23,892 nucleotides of DNA from a virus. The stretch is taken from the IMG/VR virus record IMGVR_UViG_3300036944_000642, positions 1-23,892 of that record. The stretch is one strand, 5' to 3'. The first letter of the stretch is position 1. Every line of letters starts with the position of its first letter. Of this stretch, positions 15,404 to 23,892 are shown one piece after another. The translations under genes and the position numbers were made by a program. The notes under the pieces were generated by a model. It was not told the origin of the DNA and made no database searches. It worked only from the letters and a program-made list of their open reading frames with translations.

Positions 15404-15598
15404 ATGAGCGACAACAAAAAGATCACCATCGAAGAAATCCGCAGGCGCCTGCGGGATCACAACCTTTCCGCCGTGGCCAAGGCCACCGGCTTGAGCAACG
15501 ACACGCTGTACCGGCTGATGCATGGCGTTGTGACGCCGTCTCCGGCCACCATGACCCTGATCTCCCTCTACCTCGGGGGACCTGATGGCCAAGCTTGA
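15404..15598 (+). CDS. small HTH transcriptional regulator (Cro/CI-like)
   Basis: This 64-residue protein is essentially one helix-turn-helix unit: residues 21-40 (LSAVAKATGLSNDTLYRLMH) read as HTH helices 2 and 3 with the conserved AxxxGxS turn, and TPSPATMTLISLYLGG follows as the next helix. It probably represses the divergent leftward promoter and may autoregulate. The ATG at 15404 is preferred over an upstream GTG, which would lie inside the putative operator. It overlaps the primase-helicase gene by 14 bases, so the regulator and replication genes are co-transcribed. No integrase accompanies it, so Cro-like early control is as likely as lysogenic repression. Confidence 0.8.
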   Translation: MSDNKKITIEEIRRRLRDHNLSAVAKATGLSNDTLYRLMHGVVTPSPATMTLISLYLGGPDGQA

Positions 15599-17558
15599 TC
15601 GCCCGTTCATCGTCCAGCCCCTCGACGACCGGACGCCAGAACAGCAGTTGATCGATGCGATCACCTACGAGGGCCTGATCGCTCCACCGTCGGTGACCCT
15701 CGACGGCAAGATCCACCGCTTCAAGTCGACCCCTGGCAAGGGCCATGACAAAAACGGTTGGTACATCGCCTACAGCGACGGTCGGCCCGCCGGGCACTTT
15801 GGGTGCTGGCGCCGTCAGATTGACGTCTCGTGGCGTGCGGAGGGCGGGCCATCGTGGACGCCAGCTGAGGAGATCGCCCACGCCAAGCGCATGGCCGAGA
15901 TGCGGGCGATCCGTGATGCGGAGATCGCCCGTCAGCGTGAGGTGGTGGCCGAGGTGGTGGAACAGATTTGGGGTGATCTCCCGCTGGCACCAGCCGATCA
16001 CCCATACCTGATCCGCAAGGGGGTCCAGGCGCATGGGTCCCGCATCACCACCGACGGCAAACTCGTGGTCCCGCTCTACGGTGAGGACGGCGGGGTTGCG
16101 TCACTCCAATACATCGAAGGCGACGGCGGCAAGCGGTACCACCCTGGCGGCGAGGTCAAGGGCAAGTTTTGGATGGTGGGCACCCCATCGGACGGCGTGA
16201 TCTACTTGGCCGAGGGCTTCGCCACGGCGGCAACCGTCCACGAGGTGACCGGCAGACCCTGCGCCGTCAGCTACTCGGCTGGCAACCTCGTGGACGTCGC
16301 TGGCGTGCTTGTGGGGCTCTACGGTGACCGGGTCACCACCGTCGCTGACAACGACAAGGGCAACGTGGGGCTTCGGGCGGCGGAACAGGCACTGGCCAAG
16401 CACGGGGTTCGCTATGTGATCCCTCCCATCCCCGGCGACGCCAACGACTATGTGCAGGCGGGCAAGGATCTCGCGGCGTTGCTGTCCCCAAGCACCGACG
16501 GGTGGCTGATCCCGGCTGACGACTTCTGCGCCCAACCGGCACCGATCGCATGGCTGATCCGTGGGTGGGCACAAGCCGAGGCCCTGATGATGGTCCACGG
16601 CCCATCCGGCAGCGGCAAGACGTTTGTCGTACTCGATTGGTGCTGTCGCATGGCCTCGAGCACGCCCGATTGGATGGGCGCCAAGGTCAAGCCGGGCGCC
16701 GTGGTCTACCTCGCTGGCGAGGGACACCATGGGCTGCGGGGGCGCATCGCGGCGTGGAAGATCGCCAACACCAACGCCCCGCTGGCCATGCATCTGTCCT
16801 CGAGCGGATGCGACCTAGACACCATGGCGGGGCTGGTGAAGGCTCGCGACGCCATCGCGGCGTTGCCAACCCGGCCAGCCCTGATCGTGGTCGACACCCT
16901 GCACCGCTTCCTGTCTGGCGACGAGAACTCCGCGCAGGACGCAAAGGAGATGCTGGACTCGTGCGCGGCGCTCATGGCCACGTTTGGGTGCTCGGTCCTG
17001 TTGGTCCACCACACCGGGGTCAATGAAGAGGCACAGGGGCGCGCGCGTGGCTCGAGCTCATGGCGTGGCGCCCTCGACATTGAGGTCAGCGTGACCTGCA
17101 AGGAAGGCACGATCACGATCGCCCAAAAGAAGTCCAAGGATGCCGAGTTGCTCCCGCCAGTCTTTGGCCAGCTCGCCAGCGTGACGATCCCCGGCTGGCT
17201 GGATGAGGATGGGGCACCCGTGACGAGTGCCGTCCTGGCGAGCGCGTCTGCCCCTGTGGCCGCTGCCAAGGAGACCAGCGGGTCCAAGCACCGGAAGGCA
17301 GCCGAGCGCGCGTGGTGGGCATCTGGGGCCGAGATGCGCGCGGGCGCCCCCTACATCAGCCGGGCGGGGCTCAAGGCGTTCCTGATGGATGACATGGGAT
17401 GGGCCGAGGGGACCGTGAATCAGCACATGAAGCCGTCAAACGAGCCAGGGAAGTTCATTCGTGATCTGTTGGACTGTGGTTTTTTTACCGTCCATGAGCA
17501 CGGTTGGACCATCACCGACCCGATCAGGGCATCGGCTTTGGTGCTGGCAAACCGTTAA
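15585..17558 (+). CDS. primase-helicase with Toprim and RepA-like ATPase domains
   Basis: This 657-residue replication protein has an N-terminal region with GWYIAYSDGRPAGHFG typical of phage primase-like proteins. A Toprim domain follows, with Glu210 in YLAEGFATAAT and DND at 255-257 (VADNDKG). Then comes a RepA/DnaB-type ATPase with Walker A GPSGSGKT at 339-346 and Walker B-like ALIVVDTLHRF. It probably primes and unwinds DNA at the phage origin. GGGGGA lies before the ATG at 15585. The gene is directly followed by a GTAC-rich repeat cluster, which fits an origin next to its initiator. The C-terminal 100 residues look like a winged-helix or DNA-binding tail. Confidence 0.88.
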   Translation: MAKLDRPFIVQPLDDRTPEQQLIDAITYEGLIAPPSVTLDGKIHRFKSTPGKGHDKNGWYIAYSDGRPAGHFGCWRRQIDVSWRAEGGPSWTPAEEIAHAKRMAEMRAIRDAEIARQREVVAEVVEQIWGDLPLAPADHPYLIRKGVQAHGSRITTDGKLVVPLYGEDGGVASLQYIEGDGGKRYHPGGEVKGKFWMVGTPSDGVIYLAEGFATAATVHEVTGRPCAVSYSAGNLVDVAGVLVGLYGDRVTTVADNDKGNVGLRAAEQALAKHGVRYVIPPIPGDANDYVQAGKDLAALLSPSTDGWLIPADDFCAQPAPIAWLIRGWAQAEALMMVHGPSGSGKTFVVLDWCCRMASSTPDWMGAKVKPGAVVYLAGEGHHGLRGRIAAWKIANTNAPLAMHLSSSGCDLDTMAGLVKARDAIAALPTRPALIVVDTLHRFLSGDENSAQDAKEMLDSCAALMATFGCSVLLVHHTGVNEEAQGRARGSSSWRGALDIEVSVTCKEGTITIAQKKSKDAELLPPVFGQLASVTIPGWLDEDGAPVTSAVLASASAPVAAAKETSGSKHRKAAERAWWASGAEMRAGAPYISRAGLKAFLMDDMGWAEGTVNQHMKPSNEPGKFIRDLLDCGFFTVHEHGWTITDPIRASALVLANR

Positions 17559-19575: not shown

Positions 19576-19609
19576 TTGTCGTTTGTGGGGTGTGGCGGTA
19601 GGATGCGGT

Positions 19610-20026
19610 ATGGTCCTTGACCCCGTCCGTAAAGCAAAGGCTGATGCTGTGATGGCTGCTGTGGCCAGCGGTATGTCTTTGCGGTCTGCGTCCAAGGAAA
19701 CCGGCGTTCCAGTGCAGACTTTTCTGGATTGGTGCACAGCCGACCCGGACCTTGCCGGACAGTACGCGAGGGCCAGGGACACCATGATTGACGCCATGGT
19801 TGACGAGACCATGCGGCTGGCCGACGAACCACCATCGACCAACCCCATCACTGGCGCCATCGACAGCGCCAGCGTGGCCAAGCAGCGCCTGCAGGTCGAT
19901 ACCCGGAAGTGGCTGCTGTCCAAACTCGCCCCGAAGAAGTATGGCGACCGCCTCGAAGTGGCTGGCGATCCGACGGCGCCGCTCAAGGCTGACCTCACCG
20001 TGACGTTCGTCAAGCCGGGAGCCTGA
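19610..20026 (+). CDS. terminase small subunit (Sf6-like)
   Basis: This 138-residue protein recognises phage DNA and delivers it to the large terminase. The N-terminal helices (residues 8-40) contain an HTH-like unit (GMSLRSASKETGVPVQTFLDW). QYARARD and DETMRLAD follow, and then the hallmark DTRKWLLSKLAPKKYGDRLE of Sf6-type small terminases. The ATG at 19610 has AGGA a few bases upstream. The stop shares its last base with the ATG of the large terminase gene, as usual for this gene pair. Confidence 0.88.
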   Translation: MVLDPVRKAKADAVMAAVASGMSLRSASKETGVPVQTFLDWCTADPDLAGQYARARDTMIDAMVDETMRLADEPPSTNPITGAIDSASVAKQRLQVDTRKWLLSKLAPKKYGDRLEVAGDPTAPLKADLTVTFVKPGA

Positions 20027-22197
20027 TGCAAGCGCGCATGCCTGATTGGGCGTCGGTCTTGTGGCGCCTCGACGTCCGCTACTTCCTGATCCGAGGTGGG
20101 CGAGGGTCATCGAAGTCTCGCTCAGTGGCGACGGCGCTGGTGTTGCGTGCTGCCGCTGGGTGCCTGCGCATTCTGTGCTGCCGCGAGATTCAGGACTCCA
20201 TCAAGGACAGTGTCAAGCGCACCATCGACGACGAGATCGCCCGGCTTGGCCTTGGGTGGTTCTTCACGTCGACCCAGACCGAGATTAGGGGCGCGAACGG
20301 TAGCCTGTTCATCTTCGCTGGCCTGCGCAGCAACGTGACGTCCATCAAGTCCATGGAGGGCATCGACATCTGTTGGGTGGAGGAAGCGCAAACAGTCTCG
20401 CGCAATAGCCTCGACGTGTTGATCCCGACCATCCGTCAGCCTGGGTCGCAGCTGATCTTCACGTGGAACCCGCTGAACGATTACGACGCGATCGAGACCA
20501 TGTTTGCCGTTGGCAAGGATCCGCCCGGCTCGCTGCGCGTTGACGTAAACTACGTCGATAACCCGTGGTTCCCCGACGAGTTGCGGAAGTTGATGGAGCA
20601 CCATCGCGCGACCGACCTTGAGACCTACGCCCACCTGTGGCTTGGCCAGTTCAAGAAGCGGTCAGACGCCCTCGTGTTCCGCAACTGGAGCGTTGCCGAG
20701 TGTGAGCCAAAGCCCGGCGAGCACCTGCGCTTTGGAGCGGACTGGGGCTACGCGCAGGACCCGACGGTGCTCATCCGGTGTTGGACGGAAGGGCGCACGC
20801 TCTACGTCGACCATGAGGCGTACCAAGTCGGGTGCGAGATCGTGAACCTGCCCGAGCTCTTCATGACGGTGCCGCTGTCGGAGAAGTTCCCGGTCACGGC
20901 GGACTCGTCGAGGCCTGAAACCATCTCGCACATGCGGAAGCACTTCTCGAAGAACATCTTCCCATCGGTTAAAGGGACCGGCTCTGTCGAGGATGGGATC
21001 GAGTTCTTGCGCGGCTTCTCCATCGTGGTCCATCCTCGCTGTGTCCACGTGATCGAAGAGTTGGCGAAGTACTCCTACAAGGTCGACGAGGCCAACAGGG
21101 TGCTGCCCATCCTCGTCGACAAAGACAACCACTGCATTGCCGAGGGTGAGCAGGTTCTGTGCGAGCGCGGCTATGTGCCCATCGAAGACGTGACGACGTC
21201 AGACCTAGTGCTGACCCGTGGCGGGTGGCGCCATGTCTTGTTCGCTGGCGTGACCGACTACGACCGCGACCTTGTCCGGGTGACGACGACGATCGGTGAG
21301 TTCCTGTGCACGCCAGATCACAAGGTGTGGACGTCGAAAGGGTTTGTGCGTGCCGATGCGTTGCGCTATGACGATGAGGTCATAGGAGACACGCAATGGG
21401 CAAGCCTGACGACGTCGAAACAGTTGAATGGGGCGGAAAGACTTGGCGCCGATACCCAAGCAGTGAGCACCTGTCCAACCGGCGCTACTTCCAGCGCAGC
21501 GCCAAAGACCGACCCATCTGGCTCCATCGGGCCGTGTGGGCATCCGTCCACGGTCCAATCCCCAGCGGACATCACATCCACCACATCGACGAGAACCCCG
21601 CCAACAACGACATCAACAACCTGCAGTGCCTCACTCCACAGCAGCACATCGACATGCACCCATGGTCTGCCGAGCAACTTGAGCGCCAGTGTGCTCACCT
21701 CGAGCGAATCCGACCGCTCACCAAGGCATGGCACGCCAGCCCTGACGGCCATCAGTTCCACCGACGGATCGGTCGTCTGGCATATGCCAACTTCACCCCA
21801 GAGCCCAAGCCCTGCGAGCAATGTAGCGCCGTATTTGAGCCTGGGGCCGTCGGAAACCGTGATCGCTTCTGCTCAAACAAGTGCAAGGCAGCCCATCGAC
21901 GAGCCAGCGGTGTTGACGACGTCACCCGAGTCTGTGCTTGCGGCGCCTCCTTCGTTGCCAACCGATACAGCAAGCATTCGGCTTGCTCCCGGTCGTGTGG
22001 TGCGCGTGCGAGAGGCAGGACAATGCGCGCGCGTGTACGATCTGACGGTTGAGGAGCATCACGAGTTCGTCGTCGGTGGCGTGCTCGTTTCCAATTGCAT
22101 CGACGCCCTACGCTACGCGTGCGAGTCTGCCCGGCGCACTGCCGCCGTTGCTCGCAAGGCTCCCTCTCCCCCAACTCAAATCGCCTCAAGGTGGTGA
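20026..22197 (+). CDS. terL: large terminase (TerL) precursor with intein
   Basis: This 723-residue precursor contains about 402 residues of large terminase, the ATPase/nuclease that packages and cuts phage DNA. The ATPase has GGRGSSKS at 24-31 (Walker A) and CWVEEA at 116-121 (Walker B). The nuclease has Asp239 in GADWGY, Asp293 in VTADS, and the third acidic residue in CIDALRYA after the intein (Asp693). The usual 'DKDNH-x-IDALRYA' motif is split after His369 by an intein at 370-690. The C-extein starts with Cys691. Without splicing, the nuclease centre would be broken. The gene is coupled to the small terminase and followed by the portal gene. Confidence 0.92.
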   Translation: MQARMPDWASVLWRLDVRYFLIRGGRGSSKSRSVATALVLRAAAGCLRILCCREIQDSIKDSVKRTIDDEIARLGLGWFFTSTQTEIRGANGSLFIFAGLRSNVTSIKSMEGIDICWVEEAQTVSRNSLDVLIPTIRQPGSQLIFTWNPLNDYDAIETMFAVGKDPPGSLRVDVNYVDNPWFPDELRKLMEHHRATDLETYAHLWLGQFKKRSDALVFRNWSVAECEPKPGEHLRFGADWGYAQDPTVLIRCWTEGRTLYVDHEAYQVGCEIVNLPELFMTVPLSEKFPVTADSSRPETISHMRKHFSKNIFPSVKGTGSVEDGIEFLRGFSIVVHPRCVHVIEELAKYSYKVDEANRVLPILVDKDNHCIAEGEQVLCERGYVPIEDVTTSDLVLTRGGWRHVLFAGVTDYDRDLVRVTTTIGEFLCTPDHKVWTSKGFVRADALRYDDEVIGDTQWASLTTSKQLNGAERLGADTQAVSTCPTGATSSAAPKTDPSGSIGPCGHPSTVQSPADITSTTSTRTPPTTTSTTCSASLHSSTSTCTHGLPSNLSASVLTSSESDRSPRHGTPALTAISSTDGSVVWHMPTSPQSPSPASNVAPYLSLGPSETVIASAQTSARQPIDEPAVLTTSPESVLAAPPSLPTDTASIRLAPGRVVRVREAGQCARVYDLTVEEHHEFVVGGVLVSNCIDALRYACESARRTAAVARKAPSPPTQIASRW
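21384..21388 (+). promoter_or_regulatory. Shine-Dalgarno of the nested HNH gene
   Basis: AGGAG lies seven bases before the ATG at 21396. The surrounding ATAGGAGACA closely resembles the ATAGGGAGACA leaders of other genes of this phage (8254 and 18187 starts). This supports independent translation of the HNH frame. Confidence 0.75.
21396..22052 (+). CDS. HNH homing endonuclease nested out of frame in the TerL intein
   Basis: This 218-residue protein is read in a different frame from TerL. The HNH core is LHRAVW at 43-48, SGHHIHHIDENPANNDINNL at 57-76 with His62, His63 and Asp65, and QQHIDMH at 82-88. Two C-terminal zinc fingers follow: Cys 140/143/159/163 and Cys 180/182/197/201, each ending in basic residues. 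The ATG has its own AGGAG site. The stop lies inside the DNA for intein block F, so its last residues share DNA with the splicing domain. It probably cuts terL alleles that lack the intein and so spreads the element. Fusion to the intein by frameshifting is a less likely alternative. Confidence 0.88.
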   Translation: MGKPDDVETVEWGGKTWRRYPSSEHLSNRRYFQRSAKDRPIWLHRAVWASVHGPIPSGHHIHHIDENPANNDINNLQCLTPQQHIDMHPWSAEQLERQCAHLERIRPLTKAWHASPDGHQFHRRIGRLAYANFTPEPKPCEQCSAVFEPGAVGNRDRFCSNKCKAAHRRASGVDDVTRVCACGASFVANRYSKHSACSRSCGARARGRTMRARVRSDG

Positions 22198-22200
22198 CCC

Positions 22201-23892
22201 ATGGCCCGTGAATCCCGCTCTGCCCGCCAAGCCCGCGTCCACGCCGAAGCCCTCAAGGAGTTCGACGACATTCAGAGCGCCTGCCAGGAGGAGCGCCTGC
22301 AGTGCCTCTCGGACCGCCGTTTCTGTGCCGTCCCTGGCGCGCAGTGGGAGGGCCTTGAAGAGCAGTTCAAGAACAAGCCCCGGTTCGAGGTCAACAAGGT
22401 GATGAGAGCGGTGAACAGGATCGTCAGCGAGATGCGAAACAACCCCATCACGTCGACGTTCCAGCCCCGCGACGACAAAGCAGACGACCGCTTGGCTGAC
22501 CTGATGGCCAGCCTGCACCGTGCCGATGAGCAAGACTCGGTGGCCGACGAGGCGTATGACAACGGCGCCGAAGAGGCCGTGATGGGCGGCATCGGCGCGT
22601 GGCGCCTGCGTGCGGTCAAGGTCGACGATGAAGACGACGACAACGACGAACAGCGCATCCGGTTCGAGCCCATCTTTGACGCCGATTCGTCGGTCTTCTT
22701 CAGCCTCGACAGCAAGCGCCAGGACAAGAGCGACGCGCGTTCGTGCTTCGTGCTGACGCCGATGTCCCGCGCTGCCTATGAAGAGGAGTACAACGACAGC
22801 CCCGAAAGCTGGCCTCCCGGCGTGACGCAGACCGAATACGATTGGGCACGTCCCGACACTGTCATCGTTGCCGAGTATTACCTCGTCGAGACGGTCAAGC
22901 GCACCATTCACGTGTTCCAAGACCTGCAGGGCGACGAAGAGGAATACACCGACGAAGACCTCAAGGATGAGGAGTTGGTGATCGAGTTGCGCGACACCGG
23001 CGCCCGCGAGATGCGCCGTCTGAAGAAGAACCACAAGCGCGTGCGCAAGTACACCATGAGCGGCGGCGGCATCCTCAAGGAGGAGATGATCGCCGGGCCG
23101 AACATCCCGATCGTGCCGGTCTACGGGAAGCGCTTCTTCGTCGACGGCGTGGAACGTTGCATGGGGCACGTCCGGCTGGCCAAGGACCCGCAGCGGTTGA
23201 AGAACATGCAGTTGAGCAAGCTGGCGGAAATCTCCGCGCTGTCGTCGGTCAGCAAGCCCATCGTGGCGCCTGATCAGGTGGCTGGCCTTGAGAACGATTG
23301 GCGTGATGACAACGTCGAAAACTTCGCGTTCCTGCGCTTGAACCCGCTGTTTAACGTCGACGGCTCGATGATGCCCGCTGGTCCGCTGGCCTACACAAAG
23401 GTGCCAGAGATTCCGCCCGCGATGGCGGCGCTGCTGCAGATCACAGAGCAGGACATGCAGGAGATCCTTGGCGAGAGCCAGGGCACCGAGCAGATCGTGA
23501 GCAACGTCAGCGGCAAGGCTGTCGACATGACCCAGCAACGGCTGGACATGCCCACCTTCATCTACGCGTCCAACCGCGCCAAGGCGATGAAGCGCAGCGG
23601 AGAGATTTGGAAGGGCATGGCGCGAGAGCTCTACGTTGAAGACGGGCGCAAGATGAAAACGATCGACAAGGCGAACAAGACGAACTTTGTCGAGATGAAC
23701 CGCCCGACCGTCAACGACGAAGGCGAGATCACGAAGGAGAACGACCTATCGTCAGCGGACTTCGACGTCGTTGTCGAGGTTGGCCCGTCGTCCACCAGCA
23801 AGCGTGCCGCCACCGTGCGGGCGCTCACCGGCATGATGCAGCTTGTGGCCAACGACCCCGAGACGATGAAGGTCCTCACCAGCATGTCGATG
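22201..23892 (+). CDS. P22-type portal protein, partial (runs off window)
   Basis: The frame is open from the ATG at 22201 to the window end, giving 564 residues without a stop. It matches the P22-type portal: an N-terminal helical region, FEVNKVMRAVNRIVSEMRNN, then NPITSTFQPRDD, and VMGGIGAWRLRA, followed by the wing-type insertions rich in Asp/Glu, NIPIVPVYGKRFFVDGVERC, and the stem region GESQGTEQIVSNVSGKAVD. The portal forms the ring through which TerL pumps DNA. AGGTGGTGA of the terL end serves as Shine-Dalgarno, with three bases between terL and the start. The C-terminus is outside the window. Confidence 0.9.
   Translation, partial: MARESRSARQARVHAEALKEFDDIQSACQEERLQCLSDRRFCAVPGAQWEGLEEQFKNKPRFEVNKVMRAVNRIVSEMRNNPITSTFQPRDDKADDRLADLMASLHRADEQDSVADEAYDNGAEEAVMGGIGAWRLRAVKVDDEDDDNDEQRIRFEPIFDADSSVFFSLDSKRQDKSDARSCFVLTPMSRAAYEEEYNDSPESWPPGVTQTEYDWARPDTVIVAEYYLVETVKRTIHVFQDLQGDEEEYTDEDLKDEELVIELRDTGAREMRRLKKNHKRVRKYTMSGGGILKEEMIAGPNIPIVPVYGKRFFVDGVERCMGHVRLAKDPQRLKNMQLSKLAEISALSSVSKPIVAPDQVAGLENDWRDDNVENFAFLRLNPLFNVDGSMMPAGPLAYTKVPEIPPAMAALLQITEQDMQEILGESQGTEQIVSNVSGKAVDMTQQRLDMPTFIYASNRAKAMKRSGEIWKGMARELYVEDGRKMKTIDKANKTNFVEMNRPTVNDEGEITKENDLSSADFDVVVEVGPSSTSKRAATVRALTGMMQLVANDPETMKVLTSMSM

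Follow-up and report, generated by a model that had tools for sequence, protein, structure and literature searches.

The stretch of viral DNA considered here (IMG/VR record IMGVR_UViG_3300036944_000642, positions 1 to 23,892; the whole 23,892-nucleotide stretch is hereafter the window) contains a gene for the large terminase subunit, terL, that is interrupted by an intein, and part of the intein DNA is read in a second frame as an HNH homing-endonuclease-like gene (Table 1). The terL open reading frame (ORF) runs without a stop from N-extein to C-extein, so the N- and C-terminal intein halves (IntN and IntC) do not lie on separate ORFs as in a split intein. The TerL frame contains every splicing block, from Cys1 (21133-21135) through the TPDH of block B and the VYDLTVE of block F to the terminal Asn (22093-22095), which is followed by Cys+1 (22096-22098). 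The combination of C1, T60xxH63, N321 and Cys+1 is that of a class 1 intein, and C1, H63 and N321 are invariant in 54-57 relatives. The element occupies a conserved terL site, DKDNH/CIDALRYA (here and below the slash marks the insertion point), and uninterrupted TerL proteins with an empty site are present in the relatives PBR31 and ctGfd272 and in 41 Bacteroides-type phage TerLs.

Table 1. Coordinates of terL, its intein, the overlapping HNH gene and neighboring genes in the window.
Feature	Position	Strand	Support or remark
terL ORF (N-extein, intein and C-extein in a single open frame)	20026..22197	+	Terminase_3 E 9.8e-36; Terminase_3C; Intein_splicing
TerL N-extein (ATPase and most of nuclease domain; ends ...VDKDNH)	20026..21132	+	
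TerL intein, 321 residues, Cys1 to Asn321	21133..22095	+	AlphaFold; fold match to mini-inteins
HINT domain, N-terminal half, residues about 1-89, blocks A and B (TPDH)	21133..21399	+	pLDDT 94-98
Intein linker, TerL frame	21400..21972	+	pLDDT about 43-52 over most of its length; amino-acid selection not seen, only kept open
HINT domain, C-terminal half, residues 281-321, blocks F and G (VYDLTVE...VLVSN)	21973..22095	+	pLDDT 94-98, final residues lower
TerL C-extein, CIDALRYACESARR..., Cys+1	22096..22194	+	Val at +1 in empty alleles of relatives
HNH homing-endonuclease-like gene, ATG to TGA, 218 residues, overlaps intein	21396..22052	+	HNH_3 E 5.7e-16
Shine-Dalgarno-like AGGAG, 7 nucleotides 5' of HNH ATG	21384..21388	+	Free energy (dG) -7.3 kcal/mol
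HNH_3 catalytic domain, residues 42-84	21519..21647	+	
HNH zinc finger 1: C140, C143, C159, C163	21813..21884	+	
HNH zinc finger 2: C180, C182, C197, C201	21933..21998	+	
HNH stop TGA, made by Val-Glu codons (GTT GAG) of intein block F	22050..22052	+	
terS, Sf6-like terminase small subunit (context)	19583..20026	+	
P22-like portal gene, extends past window end (context)	22201..23892	+	

The codons of the overlapping gene begin one base ahead of the TerL codons, so that the HNH is at -1 relative to TerL and the host at +1 relative to the HNH. Its HNH_3 catalytic residues (H62-H63, N75 and H84) are conserved, and both four-cysteine clusters are invariant in 54 relatives. The original prediction, which described the splicing blocks of a TerL intein and a complete two-zinc-finger HNH in different frames of the same DNA, the latter with its own ATG and AGGAG site, is borne out in the window, and the two-frame arrangement proves general in the 89 loci described below. 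Structures were predicted with AlphaFold for 54 family members, drawn from loci outside the named phage records. In the intein model the two halves of the splicing domain have high predicted local distance difference test scores (pLDDT) and flank a low-scoring linker (Table 1); the modelled splicing domain matches solved mini-inteins and has the HINT fold. Read in the HNH frame, the same DNA gives a model with a mean pLDDT of 95.7. The top solved-structure match of the HNH is the homing endonuclease I-HmuI (profile E 0.001, with a weak fold match), and its top PHROG match is phrog_15471.

How widespread is this layout? When viral contigs, phage records and genomes were scanned with HNH seeds, the HNH lay nested within a longer ORF at 89 loci, with the host frame at +1 in 89/89 and an in-frame HNH in 0/89, and both intein halves were detected at 86 of them. 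The host ORFs are nearly all TerL by mutual similarity or Pfam, and the remaining partial ORFs share the C-extein motif. At 90% HNH identity, 76 of the 89 nested loci form a non-redundant set. Circularity was checked by inspecting 43 non-nested loci and by a second, independent survey that started from the N-terminal splicing domain and was blind to the HNH. Of the 78 loci that this intein-seeded survey returned, 66 had an overlapping +1 HNH, two of which were short remnants, and 10 were HNH-free mini-inteins; an in-frame HNH was found at none of the 78. Within this family of terL inteins the out-of-frame layout is the norm. Insertions fall at four positions, close to one another, in the nuclease-domain motif NH(x)(x)DA(x)RY. 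Members are found on viral contigs and in the named phages Acinetobacter Highwayman and Tetrasphaera TJE1, and further member contigs are catalogued under Bacteroidota, Myxococcota, Omnitrophota, Pseudomonadota and archaea. The HNH-seeded search found no mycobacteriophage matches to the window HNH.

No stop occurs in the host frame of the 76 non-redundant nested loci, where the codon usage of each would lead one to expect 4.25 per locus (sum log10 P = -189.5). This family-wide result is overwhelming, though partly one of definition, the nested class having first been defined by its open host ORF; the intein-seeded survey agreed with it. The pattern holds down to 29% G+C content. Observed and expected stops in the non-nested loci are 7.75 and 6.7 where the intein is split, and 7.0 and 5.2 where the HNH is free. 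Methionine followed by a codon beginning with A, which forces a host-frame stop, occurs in 0/109 cases in nested HNHs vs. 36/86 in the others. Between close pairs the HNH frame has a ratio of non-synonymous to synonymous substitution (dN/dS, omega) of 0.07-0.40, against about 1-1.8 for most values in the host-frame linker (0.45 in one very close pair); split and free relatives, in which the linker frame goes untranslated across the HNH, give similar values for it. Substitutions cluster at HNH third codon positions. The HNH frame is under purifying selection, and the linker looks like a near-neutral by-product that is kept open, rather than a second selected protein, because its dN/dS is near neutral and its composition across the family is approximately that of synonymously shuffled HNH codons. 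The earlier description of an open, Ser/Thr/Pro-rich linker therefore stands as regards the frame, which is open throughout, but the richness needs no separate cause, since shuffled HNH codons give nearly the same composition. A function for the linker polypeptide was considered and rejected, the linker being near neutral and disordered. The +2 frame of these HNHs contains many stops, so +1 is probably the sole workable host register.

HNH start codons are ATG or GTG, with one TTG, and usually lie about 20 nucleotides or less from the end of the N-terminal splicing domain. Median predicted Shine-Dalgarno dG is -4.4 kcal/mol at HNH starts vs. -2.4 kcal/mol at control starts (p 6e-9), and a stop in the HNH frame lies 30 nucleotides or less upstream of the start in 66% of loci. 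The proposal that endonuclease and intein are separate proteins is supported by the start codons, the Shine-Dalgarno enrichment and these upstream in-frame stops, which point to separate expression of the HNH.

Exact presence and absence of the element distinguishes the Bacteroides-type phages L135 (filled) and L136 (empty), whose TerL proteins are 99.7% identical. The empty Bacteroides-type allele reads AATCAC/GGAATAGAT, and the filled allele has Cys in place of Gly at +1. Around positions 3270-3691 of L147, L148 and L151, about 420 bp of upstream flank are 57-87% identical and are followed by abrupt near-identity downstream, a one-sided, co-conversion-like tract as would be expected of break repair. 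Between L057 and L060 identity is 62% for the HNH, 53% for the splicing domain and 19% for TerL. Truncated HNHs under an open host frame are found in L195 (1453-1887) and L197 (3001-3435), 145-residue inteins that keep the last ~47 HNH residues in +1 and are deletion derivatives en route to mini-inteins; the other decay stages with an open host frame are an interrupted HNH (L240) and the mini-inteins. The exact presence or absence of the element and the co-conversion-like tract are signs of homing, and the empty, filled, decaying and mini states correspond to the stages of a homing cycle. The phages Highwayman and BP10 were considered as a recent gain/loss pair and rejected, their N-terminal TerL parts being 27% identical. 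In Acinetobacter phage BP10 a free-standing HNH relative lies immediately 5' of terS (L028 2995-3636), and no intein is seen in the annotated terL (469 residues).

Split inteins account for 21 of the 43 non-nested loci, each consisting of an IntN ORF, an HNH ORF and an IntC ORF with its own start. In most of them the IntC ORF, likewise in +1, overlaps the 3' end of the HNH gene, and its start often falls within the region of the second HNH zinc finger (GTAGATAATG). Examples of split terL with the HNH between the halves are L032 (1967-2774), L030, L123 and L125-L128. The protein family phrog_28563 (98 residues) matches IntC plus C-extein, both in the window (21994-22155) and in BL3 gp3 (L030 2311-2607), and is probably a trans-splicing C-terminal terminase fragment. 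In the deposited annotation of Lactobacillus phage CL2 a terminase is followed by an HNH, and the ORF for IntC and C-extein is omitted. In a tree of the HNHs, nested loci are widely scattered, split loci are clustered and three state changes suffice, with many forks weak. Passage from contiguous to split through host-frame stops and a new IntC start would be a simple path, the direction of which the tree does not settle.

These observations are best explained, with a probability of about 0.84, by a mobile intein in terL that has its homing endonuclease as a protein in its own right, overprinted on the linker in another frame. Ribosomes starting at the terL ATG would read through to give a TerL precursor in which a contiguous HINT domain carries a disordered loop of roughly 190 residues, and splicing, as the blocks, fold and empty sites suggest, would excise the intein and join DKDNH to CIDALRYA. 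Separate initiation inside terL, at the AGGAG/ATG and in its -1 frame, would yield the 218-residue HNH_3 enzyme with its two zinc fingers. This enzyme may cut intein-free terL close to where NH(x)(x)DA(x)RY is encoded, and break repair would then copy in the whole element, as exact presence or absence in near-identical alleles and the flanking divergent tract suggest. Staying open is the sole detectable selection on the linker frame, and copies that gained host-frame stops would survive only as split inteins with their own IntC start, as in the related group. Several points count against this explanation. In the window's own lineage a near-identical empty allele was not found, the closest empty TerLs examined being about 55% identical, and Foldseek returned no strong match for the HNH model (best E 0.08). 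Shine-Dalgarno signals are weak at about half of the nested HNH starts, some of which may initiate otherwise. For the window alone, the probability of an open host frame given the HNH protein is 0.06-0.09, and the open frame could be chance.

An out-of-frame endonuclease is usually explained as an in-frame intein domain displaced by an indel or assembly error, or as a decaying pseudogene, and broken HNHs do occur in a few loci (L240, L195). With 76 non-redundant loci sharing the same offset with both frames intact, the in-frame version absent from both surveys and the HNH frame under the constraint described above, this explanation is scarcely credible here; the same results dispose of two doubts attached to the original prediction, namely that the HNH might prove to be joined to the intein in frame, or be always broken in homologs. 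It is also very improbable that only the HNH frame is functional, the element blocking TerL or the linker being open by chance. A near-neutral linker and the chance estimate for the window would fit such a case, but not the lack of stops across 76 loci down to low G+C, the invariant Cys1, TxxH and terminal Asn with C, S or T at +1, or the separate IntC ORFs of those relatives that do have stops.

Could the HNH instead be made as an IntN-HNH fusion, by a programmed -1 frameshift out of the terL frame? The -1 register of the HNH is the direction of common bacterial frameshifts, and a canonical -1 slippery heptamer lies in the permitted interval at 7/74 loci. At 67/74 loci there is none, however, and this, with the upstream HNH-frame stops and the enrichment of Shine-Dalgarno signals, makes frameshifting unlikely; internal initiation is inferred to be the likelier route. 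A role for the HNH as a terminase packaging cofactor of the HK97 gp74 type, rather than as a homing endonuclease, is of similarly low probability. HNH proteins adjacent to terL act in packaging in some phages (see Kala et al., 2014, listed by title in PMC10448857), and some free relatives here adjoin terL (L034, L035). Against this, the best solved-structure match is a homing enzyme, the gene is gained or lost together with the intein between near-identical phages, and mini-inteins without a nested HNH exist.

Canonical inteins carry a LAGLIDADG or HNH domain in frame, and the TaPaz TerL intein, with its in-frame LAGLIDADG, provides a contrasting case. The window intein shares with them the HINT domain and the position of the endonuclease between blocks B and F, but its polypeptide does not include the enzyme. 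I-HmuI, whose gene lies within a group I intron, and the phrog_15471-type proteins likewise have an HNH domain, but the window gene differs from I-HmuI in being nested in an intein, in another frame. The nearest precedent for the split relatives is provided by fractured genes, in which a free-standing endonuclease lies between the halves of a split intein (Dassa et al., 2009, as cited in PMC8228797). The 21 split relatives resemble these in having the endonuclease as an ORF of its own between IntN and IntC, whereas the window and 88 further loci have a contiguous intein overlapped by the endonuclease in another frame. The endonuclease of the fractured genes is reportedly Vsr-like, not HNH.

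The closest precedent overall is the out-of-frame HNH of ShiLan, which has zinc-finger regions and lies in a phage methylase insertion with an open host frame (PMC11855218). Its authors found neither a splicing domain (intein or intron) nor a ribosome-binding site; the start codon is GTG, the insertion was thought to be retained in the protein and a disjunct distribution suggested homing (PMC11855218). As in the window, the HNH occupies an alternate frame of an open insertion. The window differs in its splicing blocks and HINT fold, its AGGAG and its terL host, and dozens of lineages share its layout. The earlier remark that the arrangement is not a standard intein type thus holds in part: no report of an out-of-frame endonuclease in a contiguous intein was found in the literature searched, which excludes subscription papers and Gosselin et al. 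(2025; bioRxiv 10.1101/2025.01.02.630785, on non-canonical actinobacteriophage inteins), but an out-of-frame HNH as such has this precedent outside inteins. It seems likely that the family represents a third architecture beside the in-frame and split ones: a contiguous intein with an overprinted homing endonuclease that is common across phage terL genes, has a homing cycle of its own and can pass from contiguous to split when stops arise in the host reading frame.

The endonuclease of an intein normally belongs to the intein polypeptide itself and is therefore made only together with the host protein. Overprinting would uncouple both, making an endonuclease possible without terL initiation or splicing, at the cost to the intein of a stop-free loop. 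The coexistence in one family of empty, filled, decaying, mini and split states makes endonuclease acquisition and the contiguous-to-split change testable. The layout would also account for those "terminase" ORFs that carry long disordered inserts. Endonuclease genes overlooked by annotation pipelines are predicted as well, for example in Highwayman and TJE1, where terL is the sole annotated gene over the HNH.

One relative, L048 (509-3838), has a single terL ORF of 1109 residues in which an in-frame LAGLIDADG domain, apparently belonging to a first intein, is followed downstream by an intein with an out-of-frame HNH. Elsewhere in the window, positions 15585-17558 encode a protein with Toprim and AAA_25 domains, likely a phage primase-helicase, and positions 474-2156, at the window start, encode a 560-residue protein with a GDSL lipase/acylhydrolase domain at its C-terminus.
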